Origin: Bacillota bacterium
Lineage (GTDB): Bacteria; Sysuimicrobiota; Sysuimicrobiia; Sysuimicrobiales; Segetimicrobiaceae
Direction: 5' to 3'
NCBI GenBank assembly: GCA_021324975.1
Contig: JAJPIA010000062.1
Span: 1 to 55,132 of the forward strand
Length of the DNA: 55,132 bases
Part shown: positions 26,359-55,014 of the stretch, piece by piece
How positions within the stretch are numbered: the first letter of the stretch is position 1
Layout of the letters: every line of letters begins with the position of its first letter
Program-made: the position numbers and the translations under genes
Notes under the pieces: generated by a model
Told to the model about the DNA's origin: nothing
Database searches by the model: none
Seen by the model: only the letters and a program-made list of their open reading frames with translations

Positions 26359-26437
26359 AGCATCATTTGCTTCCACCGCACCCGGCCGTAATCCGCGCTG
26401 CAAGCGGGCCGTGGTCGGCGGCCGCAGGCGGATCGAA

Positions 26438-26502
26438 TTTACCGTCTGTTATCGTCCTGGTTATGCTCCGGTAACGTTCACCCGGCTGAAACTTAGTAGG
26501 CT
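26438..26502 (+). promoter_or_regulatory. Repeated composite promoter, copy A (upstream of the 113-aa protein)
   Basis: TTTACC at 26438, TTAT at 12-15, GTTATG at 23-28 and GGTAACG at 33-39 of the element, followed 20 bp later by the -10 hexamer TAGGCT (26497-26502). Halves 3 and 4 also form a dyad (GTTA...TAAC). The leader to the next ATG is about 200 bases. Confidence 0.75.
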
Positions 26503-26707
26503 GGGAGTACCGATACGGGGCTCGGAGCATTCCGGCGGGAACGCGATTGTCCCCCGGCAGGTGCTTCGGAGTCCGCTCAGGCGCCGCCGGCCGCGGTGAT
26601 GTGTCGTCGCGGTTCCGATTGGCAAATGTCCTGCGACCCACACGCGAATATGGCCGAGGCGCTCGTGCGCGAACAGCGCGCACAATTTGAGAACGAGGAA
26701 CGCTGCG

Positions 26708-27049
26708 ATGAACCTGTCTCGATTCTTCCCGCACCGTGGGGCGGAGGGACACCATCTTGTGGGGCACATCGCCGATGTGCCGCGGGTTGTCGAACAGCTT
26801 GATCCGCCCGCCAAGATCATGGTGTTTCACATCGCCGAGGCCGCGAATCTGGAGTTCCACCTGACGATGCTTCCGACGACGCCGGCACGCCACAAGGGCG
26901 ATCGCGTGGAGCTGGTCTGGACCCGGGAGACCCGCGGGACTGCGATCGTGGACACGCTGTATTCGGCGCCAGACATCGGGGAGATCCGCCGGCGGAACGC
27001 AGAATACCTCCACAAGATTGTGGAGAGTGCGTCCCGCGGCCCGCAATGA
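26708..27049 (+). CDS. Uncharacterised 113-aa protein, paralog of the gene at 50731
   Basis: I do not recognise this family. The soluble, beta-rich sequence contains HLVGHIADVPRVVEQ, MVFHIAE, MLPTTPARHKGDRVEL and a C-terminal RRRNAEYLHKI helix. More than half of the residues are identical by eye to the 114-residue product at 50731-51075. The strand pattern with GDRVEL is reminiscent of a small OB-like barrel, which is only a suggestion. ATG 26708 has GAGG 10 bases upstream. The stop overlaps the start of the next small gene (ATGA). Transcription probably starts from promoter copy A. Confidence 0.75.
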   Translation: MNLSRFFPHRGAEGHHLVGHIADVPRVVEQLDPPAKIMVFHIAEAANLEFHLTMLPTTPARHKGDRVELVWTRETRGTAIVDTLYSAPDIGEIRRRNAEYLHKIVESASRGPQ

Positions 27050-27243
27050 CCGCGCACCCGCAGCTCACAGAGGCGGAGTGGGCGTTGTTGATCGATCTCC
27101 TGCAAGAGGAGCGGCGCGCGCTCCCGAGCGAGATCCGCCATACGAGCCGGAAGCTTCTGCGCATGGCCCTGCACGAACGACTCGCGATGGTAGACGCGCT
27201 ACTTATGCGGCTCGGGCGCCCGGTCACACACGCGGCCGGTTAA
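27046..27243 (+). CDS. Small helical protein, 65 aa
   Basis: Starts in an ATGA overlap with the 113-residue gene, so the two are co-translated. The sequence (LTEAEWALLIDLLQEERRALPSEIRH...LHERLAMVDALLMRL) is predicted to be two or three amphipathic helices and resembles the many small uncharacterised bacterial proteins that open with an 'L-x-E-E' helix. No metal-binding or catalytic motif. The second paralog at 50731 lacks this partner. Confidence 0.6.
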   Translation: MTAHPQLTEAEWALLIDLLQEERRALPSEIRHTSRKLLRMALHERLAMVDALLMRLGRPVTHAAG

Positions 27244-29919: not shown

Positions 29920-30020
29920 ATCGGCGCCCGGGCCGCGGCGTTCAGCCTCGGGCACATCGACGATCCATTATTCATCTCGTATCGCGTGCGCTGAGCGCGG
30001 CGGACGCATGACGCGCGTAG

Positions 30021-30085
30021 TTTACCAAAAGTTTCCATGCAGTTTGGAGTCTCGCAACGTCAGACATCCGCGAGGCGTCTCATGC
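30021..30085 (+). promoter_or_regulatory. Degenerate promoter element (copy K)
   Basis: TTTACC at 30021, AGTTTCC at 10-16, GTTTGG at 22-27 and CGCAACG at 33-39 keep the full spacing. The -10 position holds TCATGC instead of TAnnnT. It points toward coxB, about 350 bp away. Confidence 0.45.
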
Positions 30086-30110
30086 CGGGGATGTTCTTTC
30101 TCCGCGCGAG

Positions 30111-37123: not shown

Positions 37124-37156
37124 GCCATCGGGCCCGGAGTGACGCGCGCTTGAGAA

Positions 37157-37221
37157 TTTACCGTGAATTTGCCTGACGTTGGGCCGCCGGCAACGTCAGA
37201 CGCCCGCCGCGAGAGTACCGT
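37157..37221 (+). promoter_or_regulatory. Repeated composite promoter, copy H (livJ)
   Basis: TTTACCG at 37157, AATTT at 10-14, CGTTG at 21-25, CGGCAACG at 32-39, and after exactly 20 bp the -10 hexamer TACCGT (37216-37221). The predicted leader of the binding-protein mRNA is about 30 bases. Confidence 0.8.
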
Positions 37222-37258
37222 AGATGTGCCGCGACATCGCGAGATGGGAGGTGCAGGT

Positions 37259-40776: not shown

Positions 40777-40836
40777 GACGACGCTTCGGAATCGGCGTGC
40801 GCCGCGAGCGCGCCCCGGACGGGCGCCGGCTCCCAA

Positions 40837-40901
40837 TTTGCCACAAGTTTCCCTTTCGTTTAGCGGACGGCAACGTCGCTTCGCCCGGTTCGGAGTAACG
40901 T
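40837..40901 (+). promoter_or_regulatory. Repeated composite promoter, copy J
   Basis: TTTGCC at 40837, AGTTTCC at 10-16, CGTTTAG at 21-27, ACGGCAACG at 31-39, and TAACGT as -10 at 40896-40901 after 20 bp. It precedes the small cysteine-containing protein at 40977. Confidence 0.75.
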
Positions 40902-40976
40902 GTTGGTTGGGTATGCCTCGTCGCAGTGCCGCCGTTGGTCGGTTACCACGAAAAGCGCGAGAATCCGGGGCGAGCC

Positions 40977-41237
40977 GTGAACACAAAGACGATCAAGGGG
41001 ACGACGATCGATGGCTTCTGCGCCGCGTGCGGAGACCCGATCACCGTATCGTCCGGGAGACATCCTGCCTACGAGGTGGCAGGGTTCACCCGCATGAGCC
41101 GATACGGCACGCGACGGTACCGGGTCCACCTGCACCCGGCGTGCGACACGCGCGAAGTTCGGAGCCGTATCGCACAGGAGGCCGCAGCCTGGGCGCGATG
41201 GAGAGACGGCTCGGCTGCTGATGCGCGAGACGAGTGA
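40977..41237 (+). CDS. Small protein with possible zinc-binding motif, 86 aa
   Basis: Contains FCAACGDPI near the N terminus and HLHPAC about 35 residues later, a spacing suited to a single zinc site (C-x2-C ... H-x-x-C). The rest is basic and aromatic. GTG 40977 is taken as start (VNTKTIKGTT); GTG 40926 is an alternative just downstream of the promoter copy J transcription start. The next open frame begins inside its 3' end. Function unknown. Confidence 0.55.
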   Translation: MNTKTIKGTTIDGFCAACGDPITVSSGRHPAYEVAGFTRMSRYGTRRYRVHLHPACDTREVRSRIAQEAAAWARWRDGSAADARDE

Positions 41238-43255: not shown

Positions 43256-43365
43256 ACCCTACACCCCTGGACGCGGGGTTGCTCACCTCCTTCGCTCAAC
43301 GGTCTCGATTCAGCGGAATTCGACGCCCACAACCGGCGGCCGCGGCGCCGTTTGATCTGTCATCG

Positions 43366-43430
43366 AGGATACCAGCGGCCAATGCCGCCGGCGTTGCCGG
43401 CGGGTAAACACTCGGACAACTTGTCGCAAG
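43366..43430 (-). promoter_or_regulatory. Repeated composite promoter, copy P (minus strand)
   Basis: Minus strand from 43430: TTGC at 2-5, AGTTG at 10-14, GTTTACC at 22-28, GGCAACG at 33-39, and TATCCT at 60-65 (43371-43366). It points at the binding-protein gene, leader about 105 bases. Confidence 0.7.
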
Positions 43431-44225: not shown

Positions 44226-45926
44226 CTATGTTTTCATCAGCGCCGCGAAGTCGATGCCGTTGACCGGGTCGAACCGAAGGTGCTGGATCCGCTTCGACGC
44301 GGCAAGCGAGACCATCGGTTGATAAAGCATCGCGAACGGCCCGTCCTGGGCCTCGATCTGGTTGATCTTCCGATACAGCACCGCGCGGCCGGGCGTATTT
44401 TCCAGGATCCCCGCGTGCTGAACCAGCTTGGCAAGCGGGTCGTCGTACCACTGGAGCCGCCACGCGAGCGACTTCTGCGTGTAGTCGCCGAACGGCTTGG
44501 CGAAATCATCCGGATCGGGATAGTCCACGGACCACTGGGCTAGGACCATCTGCGCTTTCTGCGCGCGGTAGGTACTGTACAACTCATCCGAGGCGACCTG
44601 CCGGACGTTGACCGTGATACCGACCGCGGCGAGATCGTTCTTCACCTTGGCCGCCAGGTCGGCCGCAGAGATGCCGCCCGCTGCCTGGCCGGTTGACGTA
44701 AGCAGCTCGACCGTAAATCCGTTTGGATATCCGGCCTCGCCGAGGAGCGCCTTGGCCTTGGCGGGATCGTGGTGGTACGGTAGCGACGCGTCGTACCCAA
44801 ACAGTCCTTTCGGGATGATCCCTTGAAGCGGTATCCCGTTTCCCGCCAGCAAATCGCGAATAATTCCCTGATAGTCGACGGCCCATTTGACCGCCTGCCG
44901 CGCCTGTACCTTGCCGAACGCGGGGACGTTCTTGACGTCCATGCCGAGGTAGGTCATGGAGAGGTCGGGCGTCTGGGCGATGCTGATCCGAGGGTTCTCC
45001 CGTAGCGCCGCGAGTTGAGACGCCGACAGGCCCTCGGCGATATCGGCGTCGCCTCGGAGCAACATGTCGCGTTGGACGGTGCTCTCCATGATGTTTGGCC
45101 ACACGATGCGCTTAATCGCCGGGGCGGGGCCGAGATTGTAGTTGGGGTTGGCGCTCAACTCAATGGTGACGAGGCGCGTCCATTGTACCAGTTCGTACGG
45201 GGCTGCGCCCGCCGAGTGGTCGTTGAGCCAGGTGCTCCCGAGATCTCCGGACCTCATGTGTGCCTTCACCGCCCGGCTGTCGACGATGCCGGCAACCGGG
45301 TTGGCCATGATCGCGAGGAAGGCGCCGGGGCTGAACGGCTTCGGCAGCGCGACCACCACCGTGTGCGTATCCGGGGCCGTCACGACCTCGTCCACGTTTT
45401 CGGCGTTGATGCCCATCTGGGTGATGAGCCACGATGCAGGATCCTTGGGGATGTTCACGACTCGCTGGAACGTAAAGAGGACATCAGCGGCGGTGAGCGG
45501 ATTTCCGCTGGCGAACTTGACGCCCTGCCGCAGACGGAACGTATATGTGCGCGCGTCCTTGCTCACGTCCCATGCGTGGGCGACCTCCGGATAGACACGC
45601 GTCAAGTCGCCGGTGCGAAACCGCACGAGCGTCGCGTACATCCACCGGTCGGCGGCGGTGCTCGCGAATTCATACGCGCGCTGCGGATCCAGCGAGACTG
45701 CATCAGAGATGTCGTGCACGACGACCACGGTCTGTGTCGGCCCGTAGGCCCCTGTCGGCCGCGCGGCCGCCGGCTGCGCTACCGCGGCGTCCACCGCTCC
45801 CTCAGTCGCGAGCGGAACGAAGATCGCCCCAGCGGCCCCACCGGCTGTGATGGCAAGGAACTCACGGCGCGTCAGACGGGTGCGCGAATGACGCGTGTGC
45901 CGCGAACCACCTCCCCGTCGTGCCAT
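44226..45926 (-). CDS. Family-5 ABC substrate-binding protein with Tat signal
   Basis: 566 residues. The N terminus has a twin-arginine motif (RLTRREFLAITAGG) followed by a hydrophobic stretch, so it is exported folded. Mature features: ISDAVSLDPQRAYEF, KDARTYTFRLRQGVKFASGNPLTAADVLF, YELVQW, ANPNYNLGP, ARQAVKWAVDYQ, AKALLGEAGYPNGF. ATG 45926 is chosen because GAGGAGGAGGG lies about 8 bases upstream; the frame extends 21 codons further. Its permeases downstream are fused and broken, so it is an orphan receptor unless other permeases serve it. Confidence 0.92.
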   Translation of the reverse strand: MARRGGGSRHTRHSRTRLTRREFLAITAGGAAGAIFVPLATEGAVDAAVAQPAAARPTGAYGPTQTVVVVHDISDAVSLDPQRAYEFASTAADRWMYATLVRFRTGDLTRVYPEVAHAWDVSKDARTYTFRLRQGVKFASGNPLTAADVLFTFQRVVNIPKDPASWLITQMGINAENVDEVVTAPDTHTVVVALPKPFSPGAFLAIMANPVAGIVDSRAVKAHMRSGDLGSTWLNDHSAGAAPYELVQWTRLVTIELSANPNYNLGPAPAIKRIVWPNIMESTVQRDMLLRGDADIAEGLSASQLAALRENPRISIAQTPDLSMTYLGMDVKNVPAFGKVQARQAVKWAVDYQGIIRDLLAGNGIPLQGIIPKGLFGYDASLPYHHDPAKAKALLGEAGYPNGFTVELLTSTGQAAGGISAADLAAKVKNDLAAVGITVNVRQVASDELYSTYRAQKAQMVLAQWSVDYPDPDDFAKPFGDYTQKSLAWRLQWYDDPLAKLVQHAGILENTPGRAVLYRKINQIEAQDGPFAMLYQPMVSLAASKRIQHLRFDPVNGIDFAALMKT

Positions 45927-46023
45927 CCCGATCCCTCCTCCTCGTGCAAATGATGGCCGTGCCCCACAATGGGCGACGCGTCCGGGCACATGCCGGACTA
46001 GGCCAGTGAACAGTTCAGGATGT

Positions 46024-46088
46024 AGGGTACTCTAACGAAGGGTGCTTGACGTTGCCGTCGCCTAAACAACACGGAAACATGTGGCAAA
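46024..46088 (-). promoter_or_regulatory. Repeated composite promoter, copy O (minus strand)
   Basis: Minus strand from 46088: TTTGCC at 1-6, TGTTTCC at 10-16, TGTTTAGG at 21-28, ACGGCAACG at 31-39, and TACCCT at 60-65 (46029-46024). Drives the Tat-type binding-protein gene with a leader of about 90 bases. It is divergent from copy D, 41 bp away. Confidence 0.8.
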
Positions 46089-46129
46089 ATCGTGACACGG
46101 CGGCTCGGGAGCACTGGGCCGGCCCGAAA

Positions 46130-46194
46130 TTTACGTACCATTTTCCCCGCGTTTACGTCGCCGAGGGGCTGGCCGGGGCGGGGTCTGCCAGGCT
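46130..46194 (+). promoter_or_regulatory. Repeated composite promoter, copy D
   Basis: TTTACG at 46130, CATTTT at 10-15, CGTTTACG at 21-28; the fourth part is degenerate (GCCGAGG) and the -10 position reads CAGGCT (46189-46194), one mismatch to TAnnnT. Faces a weak open frame. Confidence 0.55.
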
Positions 46195-46201
46195 CGGGGT
46201 A

Positions 46202-46399
46202 CGCGCTACCGCCCGATTATACCCAAGCACCGGCGACCGTCAGGCGTGGGTGCTTGAGATTGCGAATGGATGGTACGCCGTCCCGCACCGGTTCTACAGA
46301 CGGGTCCGGCTCGGCGACACGGTTGAGTTCAACGGCCGGTCCTGGTCGAATCGTGAGGCCCGCGCCCGCCACGTGGAAATAAGGCAAGACCACGCACGG
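46202..46399 (+). other. Possible coding remnant after promoter copy D
   Basis: One frame reads ARLYPSTGDRQAWVLEIANG and WYAVPHRFYRRVRLGDTVEF, more protein-like than the alternatives. It has no good start codon, and it runs without a stop into promoter copy C. It may be a 3'-truncated small gene or chance; I do not recognise it. Confidence 0.25.
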
Positions 46400-46464
46400 T
46401 TTACTGCGAATTTCATTCGCTGTTACGTGCCGGCAACGTCTCCGTCCCCTCCTGCTGATAGCGT
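46400..46464 (+). promoter_or_regulatory. Repeated composite promoter, copy C
   Basis: TTTACTG at 46400, AATTTC at 10-15, TGTTACG at 22-28, CGGCAACG at 32-39, and TAGCGT at 46459-46464 after 20 bp. Precedes the first 48-residue microprotein. Confidence 0.8.
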
Positions 46465-46520
46465 GGGTGCATACTCGTGCGTGCAGCCGCGGTATTCGAA
46501 TTCGCGCAATCAGGTGAGCC

Positions 46521-46667
46521 ATGCGGAACGACGACGTCAGGAAGGACGACCCGCTGCGGGTGGAGCGGCACGCGGCGCTCGTCGCGGGCGTGTGGCTGCC
46601 TCTGCTCTGCGCGGTGAGCGTCGCCGCTTTGGTGGCGCTCGTGTTGGCGTTGACCGGGCATCTCTGA
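46521..46667 (+). CDS. 48-aa single-span membrane microprotein (copy 1)
   Basis: Too short for routine gene calling. A charged N terminus (MRNDDVRKDDPLRVERHAA) leads into one hydrophobic segment, GVWLPLLCAVSVAALVALVL, and ends TGHL. The same length and the pattern GVWL..LCAVS...LVAL.L.LTGHL recur in the 48-residue product at 47052. Each copy has its own promoter of the repeated type. Conservation of frame, length and C terminus supports real translation. Function unknown; a regulatory or structural membrane peptide is possible. Confidence 0.65.
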   Translation: MRNDDVRKDDPLRVERHAALVAGVWLPLLCAVSVAALVALVLALTGHL

Positions 46668-46849
46668 GTGCGTCGCGCCGCGTAGGAATGGGCGACATGC
46701 ACCGCTGGAAGCCTCGTTCGAGGCACCTACCGCTATCAACCGCAATCGTGACCGGACGGGTCTGCAGGTACTCGTTGGCGATCGCGTCCGTGGCGGCGCC
46801 CGAGCCCATGGGAACGGGCCGTGATGTCCCGCACCACCGCCGGTCCGTG

Positions 46850-46915
46850 TTTACGTTGAATTTCCTCAGCGTTTACGTGCGCCGCCGCGAAAGGGGACCG
46901 CGGTTCTGGTACCGT
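46850..46915 (+). promoter_or_regulatory. Repeated composite promoter, copy E
   Basis: TTTACG at 46850, AATTTCC at 10-16, CGTTTACG at 21-28; the GGCAACG part is weak (CCGCCGC), and the -10 TACCGT lies at 46910-46915, one base further than in other copies. Precedes the second 48-residue microprotein. Confidence 0.6.
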
Positions 46916-47051
46916 ACACAGTGAGGACCTCGTCGGGCGGTGCGCGTGGCCGCCGCTCTCGCCTCGGTCTCGGAAGGTCGGTCTCAGCACGCAGATAGGC
47001 CGGTCAATTCGCGACACTCATGGCCGAGGAAGGAAACTGCTCGGCATCGCT

Positions 47052-47198
47052 ATGCGCGACCGTGATTCGCAGAATGACGACGGCGTCCGGGCAGCGGGAC
47101 GGGTGCCTCGCAACCCTGGCGTATGGCTCCTCGTCTTATGCGCGGTAAGCATCTTGGGGCTGGTGGCCCTGGCGCTCGAACTGACGGGGCATCTTTAG
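47052..47198 (+). CDS. 48-aa single-span membrane microprotein (copy 2)
   Basis: Paralog of the 46521 product: charged, Asp/Arg-rich N terminus, then GVWLLVLCAVSILGLVALAL and the identical ending LTGHL. Both are exactly 48 residues. The N-terminal halves have diverged while the membrane segment is conserved. The leader from promoter copy E is about 135 bases. Confidence 0.65.
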   Translation: MRDRDSQNDDGVRAAGRVPRNPGVWLLVLCAVSILGLVALALELTGHL

Positions 47199-47269
47199 CC
47201 ATGCCCGCGGCCCGCGTTCAGTGGCGCAGTCGTTCGCGGATCGCGCCGGAACGGTGGGGGCCCTCGGTG

Positions 47270-47334
47270 TTTACCGGAAATTTCGCCCATCGTTACGTCG
47301 CGGCAACGTTGTGCAACGCCCGTGCCGGTATGGT
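47270..47334 (+). promoter_or_regulatory. Repeated composite promoter, copy B
   Basis: TTTACCGGAAATTTC from 47270, CGTTACG at 22-28, GCGGCAACG at 31-39, and TATGGT at 47329-47334 after 20 bp. One of the best copies. Confidence 0.8.
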
Positions 47335-47414
47335 AAGCACTGCTCCCATTTACACCGCTCGCTGTTACGGATCGGTCCCGCGATGCTCGACCGCGCCGGG
47401 TGCCTCTTGTGTGG

Positions 47415-47711
47415 ATGTGGCGCGCCTATCGGCGCGAGTTCCTGCGCCGGACCGCATGCCGCGTCGGCATCCATCGAATCATCAAGCTCCGGGAGCCCAC
47501 GACCGGGCACGCCGACTGGCGGTGCTGCTGGTGCGGCCGCGCATTCCCGGCTGTTTCACGGCTTCGTCGCCGGCATCGGCTCGGCGTCGGGCTCTGCGAC
47601 CGCGCTGCTTCCTGCCGACAACGCTACCGGGAACTTCGTCAAAGTGGTCCAGCTCGGTCGCGTGCGGATCGAGTCCGACCACGACCCTGCGTTTGCGGAC
47701 GGGGCCGGTGA
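47415..47711 (+). CDS. Small Cys/Trp-containing protein with a scrambled C terminus
   Basis: Behind promoter copy B. The first about 50 residues look genuine (WRAYRREFLRRTACRVGIHR, then HADWRCCWCGRAFP, a possible C-x2-C metal site). From about 47555 another frame carries an EmrA-like adaptor fragment, so the remaining 50 Arg-rich codons of this frame are probably not original. The true protein was likely about 60 residues and has lost its end. GTG 47400 is an alternative start. Confidence 0.35.
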   Translation: MWRAYRREFLRRTACRVGIHRIIKLREPTTGHADWRCCWCGRAFPAVSRLRRRHRLGVGLCDRAASCRQRYRELRQSGPARSRADRVRPRPCVCGRGR

Positions 47712-47781
47712 CGCGCGGATCCCCGTCGGGGTCTCCGCGGAGGTCGCCATCCAGACGACGAGGCACCCGCGCGCGCTCTGA
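47555..47781 (+). pseudogene. C-terminal remnant of an EmrA/HlyD-type adaptor
   Basis: Reads GSASGSATALLPADNATGNFVKVVQ, then VRIESDHDP and VGVSAEVAIQT, the end of EmrA-like membrane-fusion proteins (whose consensus ends LLPPENATGNFVKVVQRVPV...LRPGMSV). About 250 N-terminal residues are missing. The matching EmrB-type pump also survives only as debris at 36824-37123. Confidence 0.7.
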
Positions 47782-47856: not shown

Positions 47857-49737
47857 ATGCCGTCACGGATCGAGGACTACGCGCTCGTGGGCGACTGCGA
47901 GACGTGCGCCCTCGTGGCGCGGGACGGATCGGTCGATTGGCTGTGTTGGCCGCGCTTCGATAGCGGCGCGTGCTTCGCCGCGCTGCTCGGTGACGCTGGT
48001 AATGGCCGCTGGCTCATCGCGCCACGCGCCGAGCATGCGACCGTCAGCCGCCGGTACCGCGGCGACACGCTGATTCTCGAGACCACCTTCGACACGCACG
48101 ACGGTTCCGTCATGCTCGTCGACTTTATGCCGCCGCGCGCCAAGGCCTCAGATTTGGTGCGGCTCGTGGTTGGTACACGCGGCACCGTCGTCATGCGGAC
48201 CGAGCTCGTCATCCGGTTCGATTACGGGTCGCTCGTGCCGTGGGTGACGCGAGCGACGGACGGCACGCTGTGCGCAATCTCGGGTCCCGACCTGGCGGTG
48301 CTCCGCACGACCGTTCCGCTCCGCGGCGAGGACCTGAAGACAGTCGGCGAATTTGCCGTATCGGCCGGCGAGACCGTGCCGTTTGTGTTGACGTATGGAG
48401 CCTCACATCGGAGGATTCCCGCCGCGATCGATCCGGCGCGGGCCCTCGCCGACACGGAGGCGTTCTGGCAGAAGTGGGCCGGTCGGTTCCATCGGTTCGA
48501 AGGGACGAACGAATGGATCGACCCCGTCATGCGCTCCCTCATCACCCTGAAGGCGCTCACCTATCGGCCGACGGGCGGCATCGTGGCGGCCCCGACGACG
48601 TCGCTTCCGGAGCAATTGGGCGGGTCGCGCAACTGGGACTATCGGTTTTGCTGGCTCCGCGATGCGACCTTTGCGCTGCTGGCGTTAATGAACAGCAACT
48701 ACTACGACGAGGCGAGGGCATGGCGAGCGTGGCTGCTCCGCACGGTCGCGGGCCATCCCGCGCAGGTACAAATCATGTACGGGCTTGCGGGGGAGCGCCG
48801 CCTGACCGAGTGGGCGGTGCCGTGGCTCGGTGGGTATGAAGGTGCCCGGCCGGTCCGCATCGGCAACGCGGCCGCGGCGCAGGTGCAGATCGACATCTAC
48901 GGCGAGGTCATGGACGCGCTGCACCACGCGCGCACGGAGAAACTGGCGGCCACACAGGCCGGTTGGATGCTGCAACAGGAGCTGCTGACGCACCTGGAAA
49001 CGATATGGGCCGAGCCGGACGAGGGGATTTGGGAGGTGCGTGGCGGCGCGCGCCACTTCACCTATTCGAAAGTCATGGCCTGGGTCGCCTTCGACCGGGC
49101 CATCAAAAGCGCCGAACGGTTTGGCCTTGACGGGCCTGTGGACCGATGGCGCGCGGTGCGTCAGCGAATCCACGACGACGTCTGCCGACACGCGTTCAAT
49201 CCTCGGGTCGGCGCCTTTGTGCAGAGCTACGGCTCGGAGGCGCTCGATGCCAGTGTGCTGCTCATCCCGCTCGTCGGCTTCCTTCCGGCGACCGACGACC
49301 GCATGCGCAGCACTGTGGAGGCGATCGAACGTTGCCTCCAGGTCGACGGGTTCGTGAGGCGCTATGACCCTCGCACAGGCCGCGACGGCCTTTCGGGGCG
49401 GGAGGGAGCGTTCCTCGCGTGCAGCTTTTGGCTGGCGGACAATCTCGCGCTGCTGGGGCGTGAACAGGACGCGCGCCGGCTGTTCCAGCGTCTCCTCGCA
49501 CTACGAAACGACGTTGGACTTCTCTCCGAGGAATACGATCCCGCGACCTCCCGCCTAGTGGGGAATTTTCCGCAGGCATTGTCCCACATCAGCCTGATCA
49601 ACACCGCTCACAACCTGAGCCACGGCCGCAGACCCATCGAGCAGCGAGCGCGCGGCGCCGCGCCCGCCGTATCAGATGTCGTCGCGAAGGCGATACCCGA
49701 CGCTCCGGATGGTTTGGATCAGGGGCCGGGACCCTAG
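47857..49737 (+). CDS. Glycoside hydrolase family 15 protein (glucoamylase/trehalase-like)
   Basis: 626 residues, no signal peptide, hence probably cytoplasmic. N-terminal beta-sandwich domain starts IEDYALVGDCETCALVARDGSVDWLCWPRFDS, the classic start of this family. The catalytic (alpha/alpha)6 barrel has SRNWDYRFCWLRDATFAL, EPDEGIWEVRGGARHFTYSKVMAWVAFDRA (general acid Glu) and LLSEEYDP (general base Glu). Substrate could be trehalose, maltose or isomaltose-type glucosides. ATG 47857 has GAGG upstream. Its last 66 bases overlap the convergent response-regulator gene. Confidence 0.93.
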   Translation: MPSRIEDYALVGDCETCALVARDGSVDWLCWPRFDSGACFAALLGDAGNGRWLIAPRAEHATVSRRYRGDTLILETTFDTHDGSVMLVDFMPPRAKASDLVRLVVGTRGTVVMRTELVIRFDYGSLVPWVTRATDGTLCAISGPDLAVLRTTVPLRGEDLKTVGEFAVSAGETVPFVLTYGASHRRIPAAIDPARALADTEAFWQKWAGRFHRFEGTNEWIDPVMRSLITLKALTYRPTGGIVAAPTTSLPEQLGGSRNWDYRFCWLRDATFALLALMNSNYYDEARAWRAWLLRTVAGHPAQVQIMYGLAGERRLTEWAVPWLGGYEGARPVRIGNAAAAQVQIDIYGEVMDALHHARTEKLAATQAGWMLQQELLTHLETIWAEPDEGIWEVRGGARHFTYSKVMAWVAFDRAIKSAERFGLDGPVDRWRAVRQRIHDDVCRHAFNPRVGAFVQSYGSEALDASVLLIPLVGFLPATDDRMRSTVEAIERCLQVDGFVRRYDPRTGRDGLSGREGAFLACSFWLADNLALLGREQDARRLFQRLLALRNDVGLLSEEYDPATSRLVGNFPQALSHISLINTAHNLSHGRRPIEQRARGAAPAVSDVVAKAIPDAPDGLDQGPGP

Positions 49738-50409
49738 ATCGGATTCAAGCCGCTGCCGCAGCCGTGAGACGTGGACATCGAGCGTCTTTTCTTCGCCGAA
49801 GAAGTCGTCCCCCCAAACGGCCGTGAGGAGGTCCCGCCGCGTCACGACTTGCCCCGCATGCTCGGCGAGCACGCGAAGCAGGTCGAACTCCTTCCGCGGC
49901 AACTCCACGGGACGACCCCGCAGGCTCACGGCGTGACGGGCTAAATCGATCATGAGCGGGCCGACCTCGAGCCGGTCGGTCGGGCCTGCGTTGCTGCCGC
50001 GTCGGATAGCGGCGCGGACGCGGGCGACAAACTCTCGCGGCCCGAACGGCTTCGCGAGATAATCATCGGCGCCGACCTCAAGCCCGACGACTTTGTCGAC
50101 CTCGTCACCCCGCGCGCTCACCATCATGATCGGAACCCGCAGCATCTGACGAATCCGACGGGTTACTTCAAGGCCGTCGACGTCGGGGAGCATGATGTCG
50201 AGCACGATCAGCGCAGGACGCTCGGCGCCGGCCGCTTCCAGTGCGGCTGTTCCCGTCTCGGCCGTGACCACGCGGTACCCTTCGCGCTCGAGGAAGTACC
50301 GCATCGACGTGAGCATCGGCACTTCGTCATCCACGATCAGAACCGTCGGATGACCCTGGACGCTGTCGTGGGCGGGGACAATTGACGTGACCATCAGAGA
50401 ACTCACCAC
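49672..50409 (-). CDS. OmpR/PhoB-family response regulator (RegX3-like)
   Basis: 245 residues. Receiver domain: acidic pocket VDDE, phospho-acceptor Asp in VLDIMLPDVDGLEV, switch MVSARG, and KPFGPREFVARV. DNA-binding winged helix: RKEFDLLRVLAEHAG, VWGDDFFGEEKTLDVHVSRLRQRLE, VGYRLRDD. The WGxDFFG...RTxDVH type is seen in phosphate regulators such as RegX3. No kinase gene is adjacent. The start codon is GTG 50409; ATG 50394 is possible. It is a candidate regulator for the repeated 11-bp-phased promoter. Confidence 0.92.
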   Translation of the reverse strand: MVSSLMVTSIVPAHDSVQGHPTVLIVDDEVPMLTSMRYFLEREGYRVVTAETGTAALEAAGAERPALIVLDIMLPDVDGLEVTRRIRQMLRVPIMMVSARGDEVDKVVGLEVGADDYLAKPFGPREFVARVRAAIRRGSNAGPTDRLEVGPLMIDLARHAVSLRGRPVELPRKEFDLLRVLAEHAGQVVTRRDLLTAVWGDDFFGEEKTLDVHVSRLRQRLESDLGSRPLIQTIRSVGYRLRDDI

Positions 50410-50639
50410 CTCTACCTGATCGTACGTGTCGTCGTGCGGCAGAGTTCTCGGCGATGTGCGTCAGCCGGGCACCTGTTAGGTTGTCGCAGGACCTCCAGCA
50501 AGCGACCTCCATCCTGAGCAGTGCGAACCTCGAGCTTCGCACGTCGCACGTCGTGCGACGTTCACTGTGGCCTGCCCAGCTCATCGCTGACTCCCGCTGC
50601 GCCGATGGAAGGCATGTACGGGCTTCCGGCACTGCAGAT
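50410..50639. other. Gene-free stretch between the response regulator and promoter copy F
   Basis: About 230 bp carrying the upstream region of the response regulator (minus) and, adjoining it, the promoter of the 114-residue gene (plus). I see no open frame with protein character and no other motif. Confidence 0.4.
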
Positions 50640-50704
50640 TTTACTGTGCGTTAAGTCGCGGTTTACATCCCGGCAACGCTCCACCCGCCGCCGGTTGCTA
50701 GGGT
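50640..50704 (+). promoter_or_regulatory. Repeated composite promoter, copy F
   Basis: TTTACTG at 50640, GTTA at 11-14, GTTTACA at 22-28, CGGCAACG at 32-39, and TAGGGT at 50699-50704 after 20 bp. The leader of the downstream mRNA is only about 20 bases. Confidence 0.8.
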
Positions 50705-50730
50705 CAGGTTGGACGGGAAAGGAGCGAATC

Positions 50731-51075
50731 ATGAATATCGCGCACCTTTTGCCCTTTCGCAACGGTGCAAAGAGCCTGCACCTGGTCGGGCACATCGCGG
50801 ATGTGCCCCAGGTCGTCGATCAAGTGGCGTCACCGGGGAAAGTGATGGTCTTTCATCTGGTCGAGTGCCCCGACATCGAATTTCGGCTGAAGATGCTGCC
50901 CACCACGCCGGTGCGCCACCGAGGCGATCGCGTGGAGCTTACGTACACGCCGCGTGCCAACGGAATCGCGACGGTGGAGGCGCTGCACTCAGCGCCGGAT
51001 AGCGGAGAGACTCGGCGGCGCAATGCGGAGTATCTCCGCAAGATCCTGGACAGTACGACCCGCAACGCTCAATGA
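50731..51075 (+). CDS. Uncharacterised 114-aa protein, paralog of the gene at 26708
   Basis: Same family as the 26708 product: HLVGHIADVPQVVDQ, MVFHLVE, MLPTTPVRHRGDRVEL, SAPDSGETRRRNAEYLRKIL. The start has an excellent ribosome site (AAAGGAG, 7 bases before ATG). No co-translated partner follows here. Both paralogs stand directly behind the repeated promoter, suggesting one regulon. The GHIADVP codons form a near-perfect DNA palindrome in both copies. Function unknown; an OB-like fold is only a guess. Confidence 0.75.
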   Translation: MNIAHLLPFRNGAKSLHLVGHIADVPQVVDQVASPGKVMVFHLVECPDIEFRLKMLPTTPVRHRGDRVELTYTPRANGIATVEALHSAPDSGETRRRNAEYLRKILDSTTRNAQ

Positions 51076-51198
51076 GCGCCGTGCGCGTGCTTGCCAACCC
51101 GCCCGGCATGTCGAATGACTTCCGTCAGCGATGAACGCGGGCTTCCGGCGAGGGATGAAGGACGCGATGCCTCCGTCGCTCGCCGTACGCGGCGAGGT

Positions 51199-51456
51199 TC
51201 AATGAGCGATCGGGACGTCCAGCTTGGCCATCAACACGATCATGAGGGCCGCGAAGAGCAGGCCGGCGATGTTGACACGGGCGACGCGCCGAGCGTAGCC
51301 ACGACGTTCAACAGGCACGCCGCTTCGATAGTGCGCGACAACCTTCGATGACAGGATGTCCGCGAGAAGCCAGGACAAAACGGCACACGCCGCGAGCAAC
51401 GCGAACAGCCATGCCCAGGAACGCGGGTCGGCATACTGTGGCATTCGGGCGCTCAT
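51199..51456 (-). CDS. Small two-span membrane protein, 85 aa
   Basis: Two hydrophobic segments, WAWLFALLAACAVLSWLLAD and VNIAGLLFAALMIVLMAKL, flank a basic loop (RRGYARRVAR). The order suggests both termini on one side. No recognised family. It has no close neighbour on its strand. ATG 51456 follows a G-rich ribosome-site-like stretch. Confidence 0.55.
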   Translation of the reverse strand: MSARMPQYADPRSWAWLFALLAACAVLSWLLADILSSKVVAHYRSGVPVERRGYARRVARVNIAGLLFAALMIVLMAKLDVPIAH

Positions 51457-51596
51457 GCCCCCGCCGCCGCGCCTGCTAGCGCGAGGCCGTGCCGTACCGC
51501 TTGGACCCAGGATACTGTGGCAACTTCACAGGCACCAGGATACCATGTGTCGGCGCGGCCGGAGGACCACCGCGCCGGCGGGCGAACGGCGCGCCT

Positions 51597-51764
51597 GAGT
51601 TGCAGTACCCCACGCTGTTGCGCACCGCGGCCTGGAAGCCGACGGTGGTAAGCATCGGCCACCGCAACACGCTCGCCAAGTTTCATGATCGCGTGCTGCA
51701 TCTTGCGCCGATCGGGCGTCGTGTCTCGGTTGCCGCATCATCTGCCGTCGACGGGCCACCCTGA
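51597..51764 (+). pseudogene. C-terminal remnant of an SbmA/BacA-like ABC transporter
   Basis: The segment YPTLLRTAAWKPTVVSIGHR followed by NTLAKFHDRVLHLAPIG matches the end of the ATPase domain (H-loop 'SxGHR' and FH-x-x-x-L-x-L tail) of fused permease/ATPase proteins of the SbmA/YddA group. The rest of a roughly 550-residue protein is missing. Confidence 0.55.
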
Positions 51765-52339
51765 CACGCGCGAAGGACGCGTCCGGCGGCCCCCAGGCAC
51801 CGCGAATCGTCGCGCGGGGCAGCCCGCCCAGTGCGCGAGGGCCAAGCGGCGAGGCCACGTGCACAGCGAGAGCGCCGGCGGCCCCCGCGATCCCGGTGAG
51901 AAACGAAAGACGGGCGAACCAGGCCGTCCGTTCCTCTGGGCTGTAATGTCCGCCAAGACTGCGCTCTGGATGGGTTGCGCCGCGCCGCCAACGCCGCCGC
52001 CGGCCAACGAGCCGGTGGCGGAATAACCGCCCACGAACGCGGCCAGAAGCGACGCCCAGTGCCCCGCCGACGCGTAGACGAGCAAGGCGCTCGCCGGCAG
52101 CAGGGTGCTCACCACGACGAGCATCGTCTTCCGGCCAACCACGTCGGCCAGAAAGCCCCCCACCAGTCAAGCGCCGCCGTGCCCAGGGCGCCGGTCGTGT
52201 AGACGAATCCCAGGATGAGCGGGGACTGCTGGGCCTGCTGCAAGACCAAGTACGGCAGCGCCACGTTGATCATGCCCGCGGCGATGCTGCGGCTCGCGTG
52301 AAAGGTGGCGAGGAACCAGATGTCGCGCTGTCTCACCAT
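51738..52339 (-). pseudogene. Frameshifted N-terminal half of an MFS transporter
   Basis: ATG 52339 starts RDIWFLATFHASRSIAAGMI and PYLVLQQAQQSPLILGFVYTTGALG in one frame. The sequence then continues in another as GGFLADVVGRKTMLVVVSTLLPASALLVYASAG (the conserved MFS loop GxxaDrxGRr) through FVGGYSATGSLAGG. It moves again near 51950 to EERTAWFARLSFLTGIAGAAGAL. At least two frameshifts are needed, and the C-terminal half is absent or unrecognisable. It abuts the ABC remnant on the other strand. Confidence 0.65.
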
Positions 52340-52482
52340 GAGCGGCCGCTGGCCGGAAGCGGGTGCACCGCGTGGGTCGCCACCTTGATCCCCGCGTCCG
52401 CCATGCCGCTCGTGGCGCGCTCGGCTACGTTTCGACTGGGCACGCGGCGCGATGCTCCCCGGCGCATCACGAGCACGGCCAG
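52340..52482. other. Gene-free stretch upstream of promoter copy G
   Basis: No convincing gene or other motif between the start of the MFS remnant and the promoter. The leader beyond the promoter (52548-52749) is also without a clear gene, apart from an 18-codon frame after ATG 52552. Confidence 0.35.
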
Positions 52483-52547
52483 TTTACCCGAAATTTCTTC
52501 CAACGTTACGCCTAGGCAACCTCAATGGGCGCCCTCCCGGCTAAACT
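52483..52547 (+). promoter_or_regulatory. Repeated composite promoter, copy G
   Basis: TTTACCCGAAATTTC from 52483, CGTTACG at 22-28, AGGCAAC at 32-38, and TAAACT at 52542-52547 after 20 bp. Followed by a leader of about 200 bases to the SPW-repeat gene. Confidence 0.8.
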
Positions 52548-52749
52548 GGACATGGAGTGCGAGCGGAGACAGGAGTCGGTAACACCCGATCACCGCCTCC
52601 AGCGATGAGCGGGCTCGTCGAGGGTACGTACTGGCTGTATAACCACATGGCGTTGCTCGTTGGTACGCGAGGGTAATGCCCGTGGCCGCGAAGAGCGGGG
52701 CGGAAGCGGGTATCTCGACCCAGTTGGGAGGGGAAAGGAAGTGAGGCCC

Positions 52750-53109
52750 ATGATGAAGTGGGAGAACGTAGTAACAGCGCTGATCGGCGTGTGGTTCATT
52801 ATGTCGCCGTTTACACTCGGTTACACGCACCAGCCGTTCATGACGGTCACCAGTTTCGCCGGGGGCGCGATCCTTCTCGTCGCGGCGGGCGCCGCGGCGT
52901 TGAGCGAGAGCGTTCGGAGGCAGACCTGGATCTACTTGTGCAACGGTCTGGTCGGGATCTGGTTCATCATCGCGCCGTCCGCGTTGTCGTTTGCGGGCGA
53001 TCTGGGCGATCACTGGACGTCCCTCGTGGGCGGCATCGTCGTGCTGCTCTTGAACGGGGCACTTCTCTACAACTTGGCGAGGGCGAGATTCGTCCAGCGG
53101 GCGCAGTAG
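52750..53109 (+). CDS. SPW-repeat-like membrane protein, 119 aa
   Basis: Four hydrophobic segments in two similar halves: WENVVTALIGVWFIMSPFTL and WIYLCNGLVGIWFIIAPSAL, each with the G-x-W-x-I-x-x-P pattern of SPW repeats. Such proteins are inner-membrane proteins of unknown function. Good ribosome site (GGAAAGGAAGTGAGG) before ATG 52750; the 30 additional codons upstream are unlikely to be used. Single gene behind promoter copy G. Confidence 0.8.
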   Translation: MMKWENVVTALIGVWFIMSPFTLGYTHQPFMTVTSFAGGAILLVAAGAAALSESVRRQTWIYLCNGLVGIWFIIAPSALSFAGDLGDHWTSLVGGIVVLLLNGALLYNLARARFVQRAQ

Positions 53110-53297
53110 TGATCTTGTCCAACCATCCCAGGACGGCCCTCGACGCCTAGCCCTCCCAGCACTCCATCAGGGATGATTCCGCTTGGATAGCCGGGGCGGC
53201 ATGTTTGAGCGCCGCCCCAAACTACCCAACGCGGCAGGAAAATCCGCTGCCCGCACCCAACGGCGTCCAACTTGGCCGTCTTGGGAGGGCTCGACGA

Positions 53298-53483
53298 GTG
53301 GTTCTATCGATTGCCACGATGGGACTGCCGACAATGCTTATGCTTGCGTGGGGGCTCCCACTCGTGACGCTCACGTTGCACCTGCTCCATGTCTCCGACG
53401 AGGAGCGGCTCGTCGCGGGGTCGTTTCTTGCGTTTGCGTATGGGTTGCTCGGCACTCCGCTGCTCCACTGGCTGACCCGATAG
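53298..53483 (+). CDS. Small two-span membrane protein, 61 aa
   Basis: Two hydrophobic stretches (SIATMGLPTMLMLAWGLPLV and RLVAGSFLAFAYGLLGTPLL) separated by a short acidic loop. GTG 53298 is taken as start because GGGAGG lies 8 bases upstream; TTG 53205 is an in-frame alternative adding 31 polar residues. No recognised family; convergent with the histidine kinase gene. Confidence 0.5.
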   Translation: MVLSIATMGLPTMLMLAWGLPLVTLTLHLLHVSDEERLVAGSFLAFAYGLLGTPLLHWLTR

Positions 53484-53514
53484 CCTGGACATCCGAGACG
53501 TGGCGGCCGGATGT

Positions 53515-55014
53515 CTAGGTCGACGATACGATAGGTGCCGTGTCCGCGGAAGCGGACCGCGAAGGAAGGCGAATCACAAACCGGGTGCCGCCGGGGACAT
53601 CGCTATGCACGGTGATCCCGCCGCCATGGGCTTCGACAATCGCCTTCACGATGGACAGTCCGAGCCCACTTCCGCCCGAGGCCCGATCCCGCGCCGTGCC
53701 GCCGCGATAGAAGCGATCGAACACAAACGGGAGATCCGCGTCCGGAATGCCGCGCCCCGTATCGGCAACCTCCAACGCGGCGGCGCCGCCGACGGCATGC
53801 GCATTGAGCATAACGGCGCCTCCGGCGGGGGTGCTTCGCAACGCATTGTCGATCAGATTGTCGAGCACTTCCGCCAATCGGTCCGGGTCGCCCTCGACCG
53901 GGGGTGCGGCGGGCGGCGTTTGGATATCGAGGCGGACGTTTGCCGTGCGAGCCCGCGCTGCGAACCGCGCCGCCGCGTCGGCCAAGAGGCTCGATACATC
54001 GACCCGTTGCCGCGAGAGGCGAAGATGCCCGGTCTGGAGGCTCCATAAATCCAGAAGCTGTTGGACCAGGCGCGCCAGGCGGTCGGACTCCCGCGCGATG
54101 ATCTCGAGCATCCGTCCGCGCTGTTCCGGGTCGTCGGCCGCACCCGCCATGAGCGCGTGGGCCGTGAATTGCATGTTGGTGACCGGCGTGCGAAGCTCGT
54201 GAGAGACGTTCGCAAGAAAGTCTCGGCGGCGGGTTTCCCGCTCATTTAAACTGCGAGCCATCGTATTCAAGATCCGGGCGAGATCTCCGAGTTCATCCGG
54301 AGTCTCCGGAAGCCGTTGTTCGAGGTCCCCCGCGCCGACCCGTTCGGCGGCCGCCTTGAGAGCCGCCACCGGGCTGAACAGCGCGTGCGTCAGATAGAGC
54401 ACGAGCCCTGCCGCTAACGCGGCGGCGATTCCGAACGCCGCCGCAAGCTCCCAGCGCACACGTGCGAACAGCGCCTCCACACTGCGGAGCGGCAGCAAGA
54501 GGTCCACCGTTCCCGCCACCGCACCATTGCGCTCCACGGGGACGGCGGCGTAAAGCCAGCGCTGCCCGGTCGCATCCACGACCTGACCTTGCGCAACGGA
54601 GCCACGCAGTGCCGTCGCCACCCCGGGTTCTTGCGTGATGCCTGCCGGTAGATCTCGTGAGACGGTGACGGTGGCTCCCTGGACCGCGACCGCGATGCGC
54701 ACCCCGAGCACGTGGGCCCAGCGATCGATCTGCCCTTCGCGCGGCACTCCCTCAGGGGCCGCGGCGACTTCGGCCGCCGCGAGCCGCGCCGTCAGCGTGA
54801 GATTTGTGAGGAGATGATCGAGCGTGGCTCGTTCAATGGCGGGGACGACATACAATCCCAGGACCGCGAGCGGGATGGCGATCGCGACGAAAAACGAGGC
54901 TAACAGACGCGTGCGCAGACTGTATCTCACGTCACGTGCGCCGTGTCGAGCAAGCAGCAGTATAAGGATCACGTTCGACCGGCACGTTGCGATGACGCGC
55001 CAGACTCGAGACAC
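53515..55014 (-). CDS. Sensor histidine kinase (EnvZ/BaeS type)
   Basis: 499 residues. First membrane segment about 38-58 (LLASFFVAIAIPLAVLGLYVV), an extracytoplasmic sensor region to about 190, second segment about 190-212 (LAAAFGIAAALAAGLVLYL), then HAMP (SPVAALKAAAERVGAGDLEQRL), dimerisation/H-box FLANVSHELRTPVTN, and ATPase motifs DNLIDNALRST, DTGRGIP, GGSGLGLSIVK. Start GTG 55014 is uncertain; GTG 54930 gives a more typical short cytoplasmic N terminus. The cognate regulator is not adjacent; the only one in the window is 3.1 kb away and separated by other genes. Confidence 0.9.
   Translation of the reverse strand: MSRVWRVIATCRSNVILILLLARHGARDVRYSLRTRLLASFFVAIAIPLAVLGLYVVPAIERATLDHLLTNLTLTARLAAAEVAAAPEGVPREGQIDRWAHVLGVRIAVAVQGATVTVSRDLPAGITQEPGVATALRGSVAQGQVVDATGQRWLYAAVPVERNGAVAGTVDLLLPLRSVEALFARVRWELAAAFGIAAALAAGLVLYLTHALFSPVAALKAAAERVGAGDLEQRLPETPDELGDLARILNTMARSLNERETRRRDFLANVSHELRTPVTNMQFTAHALMAGAADDPEQRGRMLEIIARESDRLARLVQQLLDLWSLQTGHLRLSRQRVDVSSLLADAAARFAARARTANVRLDIQTPPAAPPVEGDPDRLAEVLDNLIDNALRSTPAGGAVMLNAHAVGGAAALEVADTGRGIPDADLPFVFDRFYRGGTARDRASGGSGLGLSIVKAIVEAHGGGITVHSDVPGGTRFVIRLPSRSASADTAPIVSST

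Follow-up and report, generated by a model that had tools for sequence, protein, structure and literature searches.

CydX, a protein of 37 amino acids, is a component of an oxidase (PMC4325964, PMC6005532), and MgrB, a member of the PhoP regulon, inhibits PhoQ, a function which needs about 22 periplasmic residues including two cysteines (PMC8404706). Genes of 48 codons, such as those described here, fall under the usual annotation cut-off of 50 codons (PMC7667032). In Streptomyces, the PHO boxes of PhoP are direct repeats of GTTCACCC (PMC7244524).

We analyzed a window of 55,132 nucleotides from a Bacillota bacterium (the whole stretch, contig JAJPIA010000062.1 of assembly GCA_021324975.1) and two 48-codon genes in it. 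Their predicted products are of a known kind, the one-helix small membrane protein, while the family they form is new. CydX, CcoQ and subunit IV of aa3 oxidases (PF07835) resemble these microproteins in having fewer than 50 amino acids and one helix, and a microprotein gene is tied to an oxidase cluster in a second genome. However, the microproteins have no match in Pfam or PDB and lie outside the cox operon of the window, and the oxidase is of the caa3 type. No oxidase small-subunit match was obtained in Pfam at E ≤ 10, and PDB gave just a light-harvesting chain (E = 4), which was taken as chance. MgrB is comparable in its size, its likely N-in/C-out topology, an OmpR-family-type site and a regulator/kinase pair nearby, but its long soluble part is periplasmic whereas that of the microproteins would be cytoplasmic, and there is no sequence relation. 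Since neither an oxidase-subunit profile match nor an MgrB-like periplasmic cysteine segment was found, the microproteins, judged by their sequences, belong to neither class; by analogy, they would work most like one-helix accessory proteins such as CydX or MgrB.

Coding evidence for two 48-codon genes

Two frames of 48 residues had been proposed in an earlier note, and their coordinates, lengths and sequences proved exact. Gene 1 (P0001; 46521-46667, forward strand) encodes MRNDDVRKDDPLRVERHAALVAGVWLPLLCAVSVAALVALVLALTGHL and gene 2 (P0002; 47052-47198, forward strand) encodes MRDRDSQNDDGVRAAGRVPRNPGVWLLVLCAVSILGLVALALELTGHL; an alignment of the two proteins needs no gaps over their full length and shows 52% identity. 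In an all-vs-all blastp analysis of the 322 window ORFs of 30-100 amino acids, they were the sole pair similar over the full length (E = 3e-12), and the one further match below 1e-3 spans 17 residues. As this full-length paralogy is unique among the 322 short ORFs, it is beyond chance in GC-rich DNA. An AGGTGA ribosome site lies directly upstream of gene 1; the ribosome site of gene 2 has a weak spacing. For gene 2, a CTG located five codons further upstream was considered as start, but it is out of frame in the related genome described below, and the ATG was retained.

A search of 61 genomes yielded one further strong relative (G002:C46:29393-29536), in a Bacillota MAG of the same genus from Centralia (Centralia_MAG_47, in the following G002; contig C46 matches JAJPJL010000130.1). 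This orthologue has 48 codons without gap or frameshift, its start and stop are aligned with those of gene 2, and its product is 67% identical to that of gene 2, being nearer to it than to that of gene 1. Between gene 2 and G002, substitutions affect 28 of about 40 silent sites and 20 of about 104 replacement sites (pS 0.71, pN 0.19; Fisher p = 8e-9), changes by codon position amount to 12/9/27 (p = 0.003), and dN/dS is near 0.1, a rough figure since silent sites are close to saturation. The comparison of gene 1 with gene 2 gave a pS of 0.67 and a pN of 0.30 (silent versus replacement, Fisher p = 1e-4); its codon-position counts alone (17/15/26) show no significant excess (p = 0.17). Thus, instead of the frameshifts or missing codon-level conservation which the earlier note had named as evidence against its claim, an ungapped alignment with an excess of silent changes was found. 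The “related genomes” in which that note expected the genes do hold an orthologue, but they amount to just one other genome.

Because the G002 orthologue is ungapped and changes are concentrated at silent sites, both frames are almost certainly genuine paralogous genes under purifying selection. DNA of 68% GC gives rise to many spurious ORFs, and the weakly spaced ribosome site of gene 2 would also suit chance open frames. Nevertheless, this explanation is barely credible given the selection signal, the equal lengths, synteny and promoter boxes, and it is contradicted by the G002 orthologue.

Protein features and topology

The N-tail (residues 1-22) is polar and diverged, contains five K+R and three to five D+E, and has arginines close to the helix. 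It is followed by the conserved motif GVWLxxLCAxS...LVALxLxLxGHL in a strongly hydrophobic, single predicted TM helix at about residues 23-45. The best 19-residue hydropathy mean is 2.8 and AlphaFold places a confident helix at 22-46 behind a low-confidence tail, in agreement with the diverged charged N terminus and conserved membrane part noticed earlier. The TGHL ending, also noticed, is common to both window copies; family-wide it shortens to GHL, since the G002 orthologue ends in SGHL. Invariant in all three members are M1, D5, D9, R13, G23, V24, W25, L26, L29, C30, A31, S33, L37, V38, A39, L40, L42, L44, G46, H47 and L48. With ≤50 amino acids, one predicted TM helix and conservation as coding sequence, the products are predicted single-helix small membrane proteins. 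According to the positive-inside rule, the positively charged flank of a helix stays cytoplasmic, and we infer an N-in/C-out topology, in which the N-tail would be cytoplasmic and GHL would lie on the outer side.

Short proteins with one helix, encoded in two nearby copies, also recall hydrophobic type I toxin-like peptides. However, the N-tail is long and near-balanced in charge, and the activator-type boxes described below, common to ordinary transporter and oxidase genes, would be atypical of toxins, which makes this origin highly improbable.

Search for relatives

No relative was detected in the other 41 of the 43 phylum genomes or on viral contigs, and a viral origin was rejected for the latter reason. 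Pattern scans of GTDB found none beyond the G002 orthologue; distant relatives may be missed, as these scans reach only proteins sharing short conserved peptides. Given these results in phylum genomes, GTDB scans and viral contigs, the family appears to be genus-restricted, known from two species of one genus. Weak genome matches outside G002 (E about 0.01-1) were rejected after inspection of the best ones: the match in G005 is antisense to a penicillin-binding-protein-like gene (judged by eye), those in G033 contain internal stops, and others are fragments of long frames. No family in Pfam, NCBIfam or PDB fits the microproteins. A marginal match to CrgA (PF06781, E = 0.024) concerned only one of the three members, the other two being unmatched, and was taken as chance; CrgA has two helices versus one here.

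A tandem-repeat promoter box

The repeated promoter which the earlier note ascribed to each gene is present, and it can be refined to a putative PhoB/OmpR-type tandem site. It consists of 11-bp direct repeats, usually four, followed after about 20 nt by a TAnnnT -10; the units TTTRCC, GTTTCC, GTTA(C/G) and GGCAACGTC start at positions 1, 12, 23 and 34. Self-match at lag 11 is 0.43 versus 0.25 expected, a value reached in 0 of 5000 column permutations. To judge from the repeats, the layout is that of PhoB/OmpR-type response-regulator sites. The PHO boxes of Streptomyces have a pitch of 11 bp as well and share tandem units and a GTTnAC(C) core near -35, but here the units read GTTTACC/GTTTCC/GTTAnG/GGCAACG and are usually four, and the boxed genes found are non-phosphate genes.

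Upstream of gene 1 (46399-46466, forward strand), a full four-unit box at 46399-46442 reads GTTTACTGCGA ATTTCATTCGC TGTTACGTGCC GGCAACGTCTC and is followed by the -10 TAGCGT. Upstream of gene 2 (46849-46915, forward strand), the box at 46849-46892 has three clear units (GTTTACGTTGA ATTTCCTCAGC GTTTACGTGCG), a degenerate fourth and the -10 TACCGT; it was missed by both an ungapped PWM and the sequence model. On the reverse strand, a box at 46009-46089 serves a peptide SBP gene (44226-45989, reverse strand), whose G002 counterpart (L021 10439-10837) has an apparent internal deletion which fuses the signal-peptide start to the last codons. Divergent from this box, three units at 46129-46161 have no -10 at the usual position. 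The boxes described next are on the forward strand. Downstream of gene 2, the box at 47269-47345 takes the place which in G002 is held by the box of the SPW gene; judged by eye, the frame after it (47384-47781) looks like the C-terminal part of an EmrA/HlyD-type protein and may be a gene remnant. Boxes at 26437-26512 and 50639-50715 precede paralogues conserved in G002 (26708-27243 and 50725-51075), the first of which (ATG 26708, 113 amino acids, family unassigned) has no Pfam/NCBIfam match and is followed by a 65-aa partner. The box at 30020-30094 lies about 370 nt upstream of coxB (30437) and has a degenerate -10; between 29975 and 30063, the sequence matches the box immediately upstream of the G002 microprotein gene at 87% identity. 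Three further boxes were located: one (37156-37233) where a gene for a periplasmic binding protein starts, one (40836-40911) upstream of a small CxxC protein gene (GTG 40977), and one (52482-52559) upstream of the SPW-domain membrane protein gene (about 52750-53109) and the gene for a membrane protein of 92 amino acids. The product of 40977-41237 contains CAACGxPI, has no Pfam/NCBIfam match, and its gene shows about 71% DNA identity in G002.

A sequence-only model recovered nine strong copies in the window, a weak one at 43362-43424, and six copies on the syntenic G002 contig; with 150 out of some 2000 candidates scored in each genome, it may have overlooked diverged boxes. In a pattern search of 43 genomes, boxes occurred in that of the window (G000) and in G002 only, and the reversed control pattern had no match. 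They concentrate on the window contig and the matching G002 contig (C81/C46), with few elsewhere in G000: a strong copy on G000:C76 lies about 200 bp upstream of an HtrA-like gene, an HtrA protease paralogue, and weaker ones on G000:C103 precede a second oxidase subunit I-like frame and a binding-protein gene (names by eye). The boxed genes, among them SPW, substrate-binding-protein, caa3-oxidase-linked and small genes of unassigned family, very probably form one shared regulon.

Candidate regulator and kinase

A PhoB/OmpR-type response regulator (49672-50409, reverse strand; PhoB/YycF-like, Response_reg and Trans_reg_C domains) is the candidate to act on the boxes. Its orthologue occurs at 90% in G002 only, the next best sequence across the family genomes reaching at most 53%. 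A sensor histidine kinase (53515-55014, reverse strand) is 3.1 kb off in the window; its orthologue in G002 (90%) directly adjoins the regulator (L096 2459-4862). In the window, the two genes are split by 3.1 kb (50410-53514) of boxed genes (SPW, 92-aa and the 50.7-kb gene) and an apparent MFS remnant. Regulator, kinase, boxes and microprotein are all shared by G000 and G002, and the regulator orthologue is confined to the other boxed genome; this co-occurrence is one evolutionary contrast, as it rests on a single pair of sister species. The regulator of the window probably activates the boxed genes.

The main rival to an oxidase-linked role is feedback of the MgrB type, in which the regulator-induced helix would bind the kinase in the membrane and damp or tune signaling. 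Boxed genes are found within 2.5-7 kb of those for the kinase and the regulator, the microproteins (48 versus 47 amino acids) probably share the N-in/C-out topology of MgrB, and they have the presence pattern of the kinase. However, the periplasmic segment of about 22 residues with two cysteines on which MgrB depends is absent here: about three residues, GHL, extend past the helix, and the sole cysteine (C30) is inside it. Further, the G002 kinase is on another contig, and two copies per genome suit a structural or dosage role equally. We consider such feedback decidedly unlikely.

Genomic context and proposed role

In G002, where gene families were assigned via window orthologues, the order is box, microprotein, box, SPW, 92-aa, coxB, coxAC, ctaG, Rieske and cytochrome b. 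The oxidase cluster of the window has 87% DNA identity to that of G002 and retains its box, whereas the microprotein, SPW and 92-aa genes are 16-23 kb from it and more diverged. The microprotein gene is thus beside the oxidase genes in G002 but not in the window, where both copies sit amid rearranged regulon genes, 16 kb from the oxidase genes. In G001, coxB is present (68%) and no microprotein was detected, although the contig ends 5 nt upstream of coxB. Both observations speak against a link to the oxidase.

We propose that the PhoB/OmpR-type regulator would bind the box and activate a sigma-70-type promoter. The helix-proximal arginines would hold the N-tail in the cytoplasm, with the GHL end outside, and the helix would pack against a larger membrane protein encoded in that regulon. 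As partner we favor the caa3-type oxidase/bc module, since the G002 gene stands between a box and the SPW-to-cytochrome b cluster; the microprotein would stabilize or tune this complex, a role comparable to that of CydX in cytochrome bd. A respiratory membrane partner, suggested mainly by this position, is possible but doubtful as a specific claim.

The microproteins could also be stress peptides of the YohP type, acting on the membrane or metabolism with no single protein partner. Small membrane proteins of fewer than 50 amino acids are often stress-induced (PMC12719787), and the HtrA protease paralogue and SPW proteins are boxed, too. The conservation of W25, L26, C30, A31, S33, G46 and H47, on the other hand, argues for a defined contact, and we regard this role as unlikely. 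An accessory role at the oxidase would come first, ahead of kinase feedback or a general stress function. Our preferred reading, held tentatively, is that of lineage-restricted, N-in/C-out one-helix inner-membrane proteins of the regulon, most likely small accessory helices of the respiratory machinery. A more speculative view, to which we give little weight, sees them as orphan regulator-induced microproteins which would tune the two-component system or a respiratory target, the diverged cytoplasmic tails conferring two specificities.

Here, an orphan pair of 48-codon genes under selection is assigned to a defined regulon for which a candidate regulator, a kinase and possible membrane partners can be named, so that the function is directly testable, and the 11-bp box provides a handle for finding the remaining regulon in this uncultured group.
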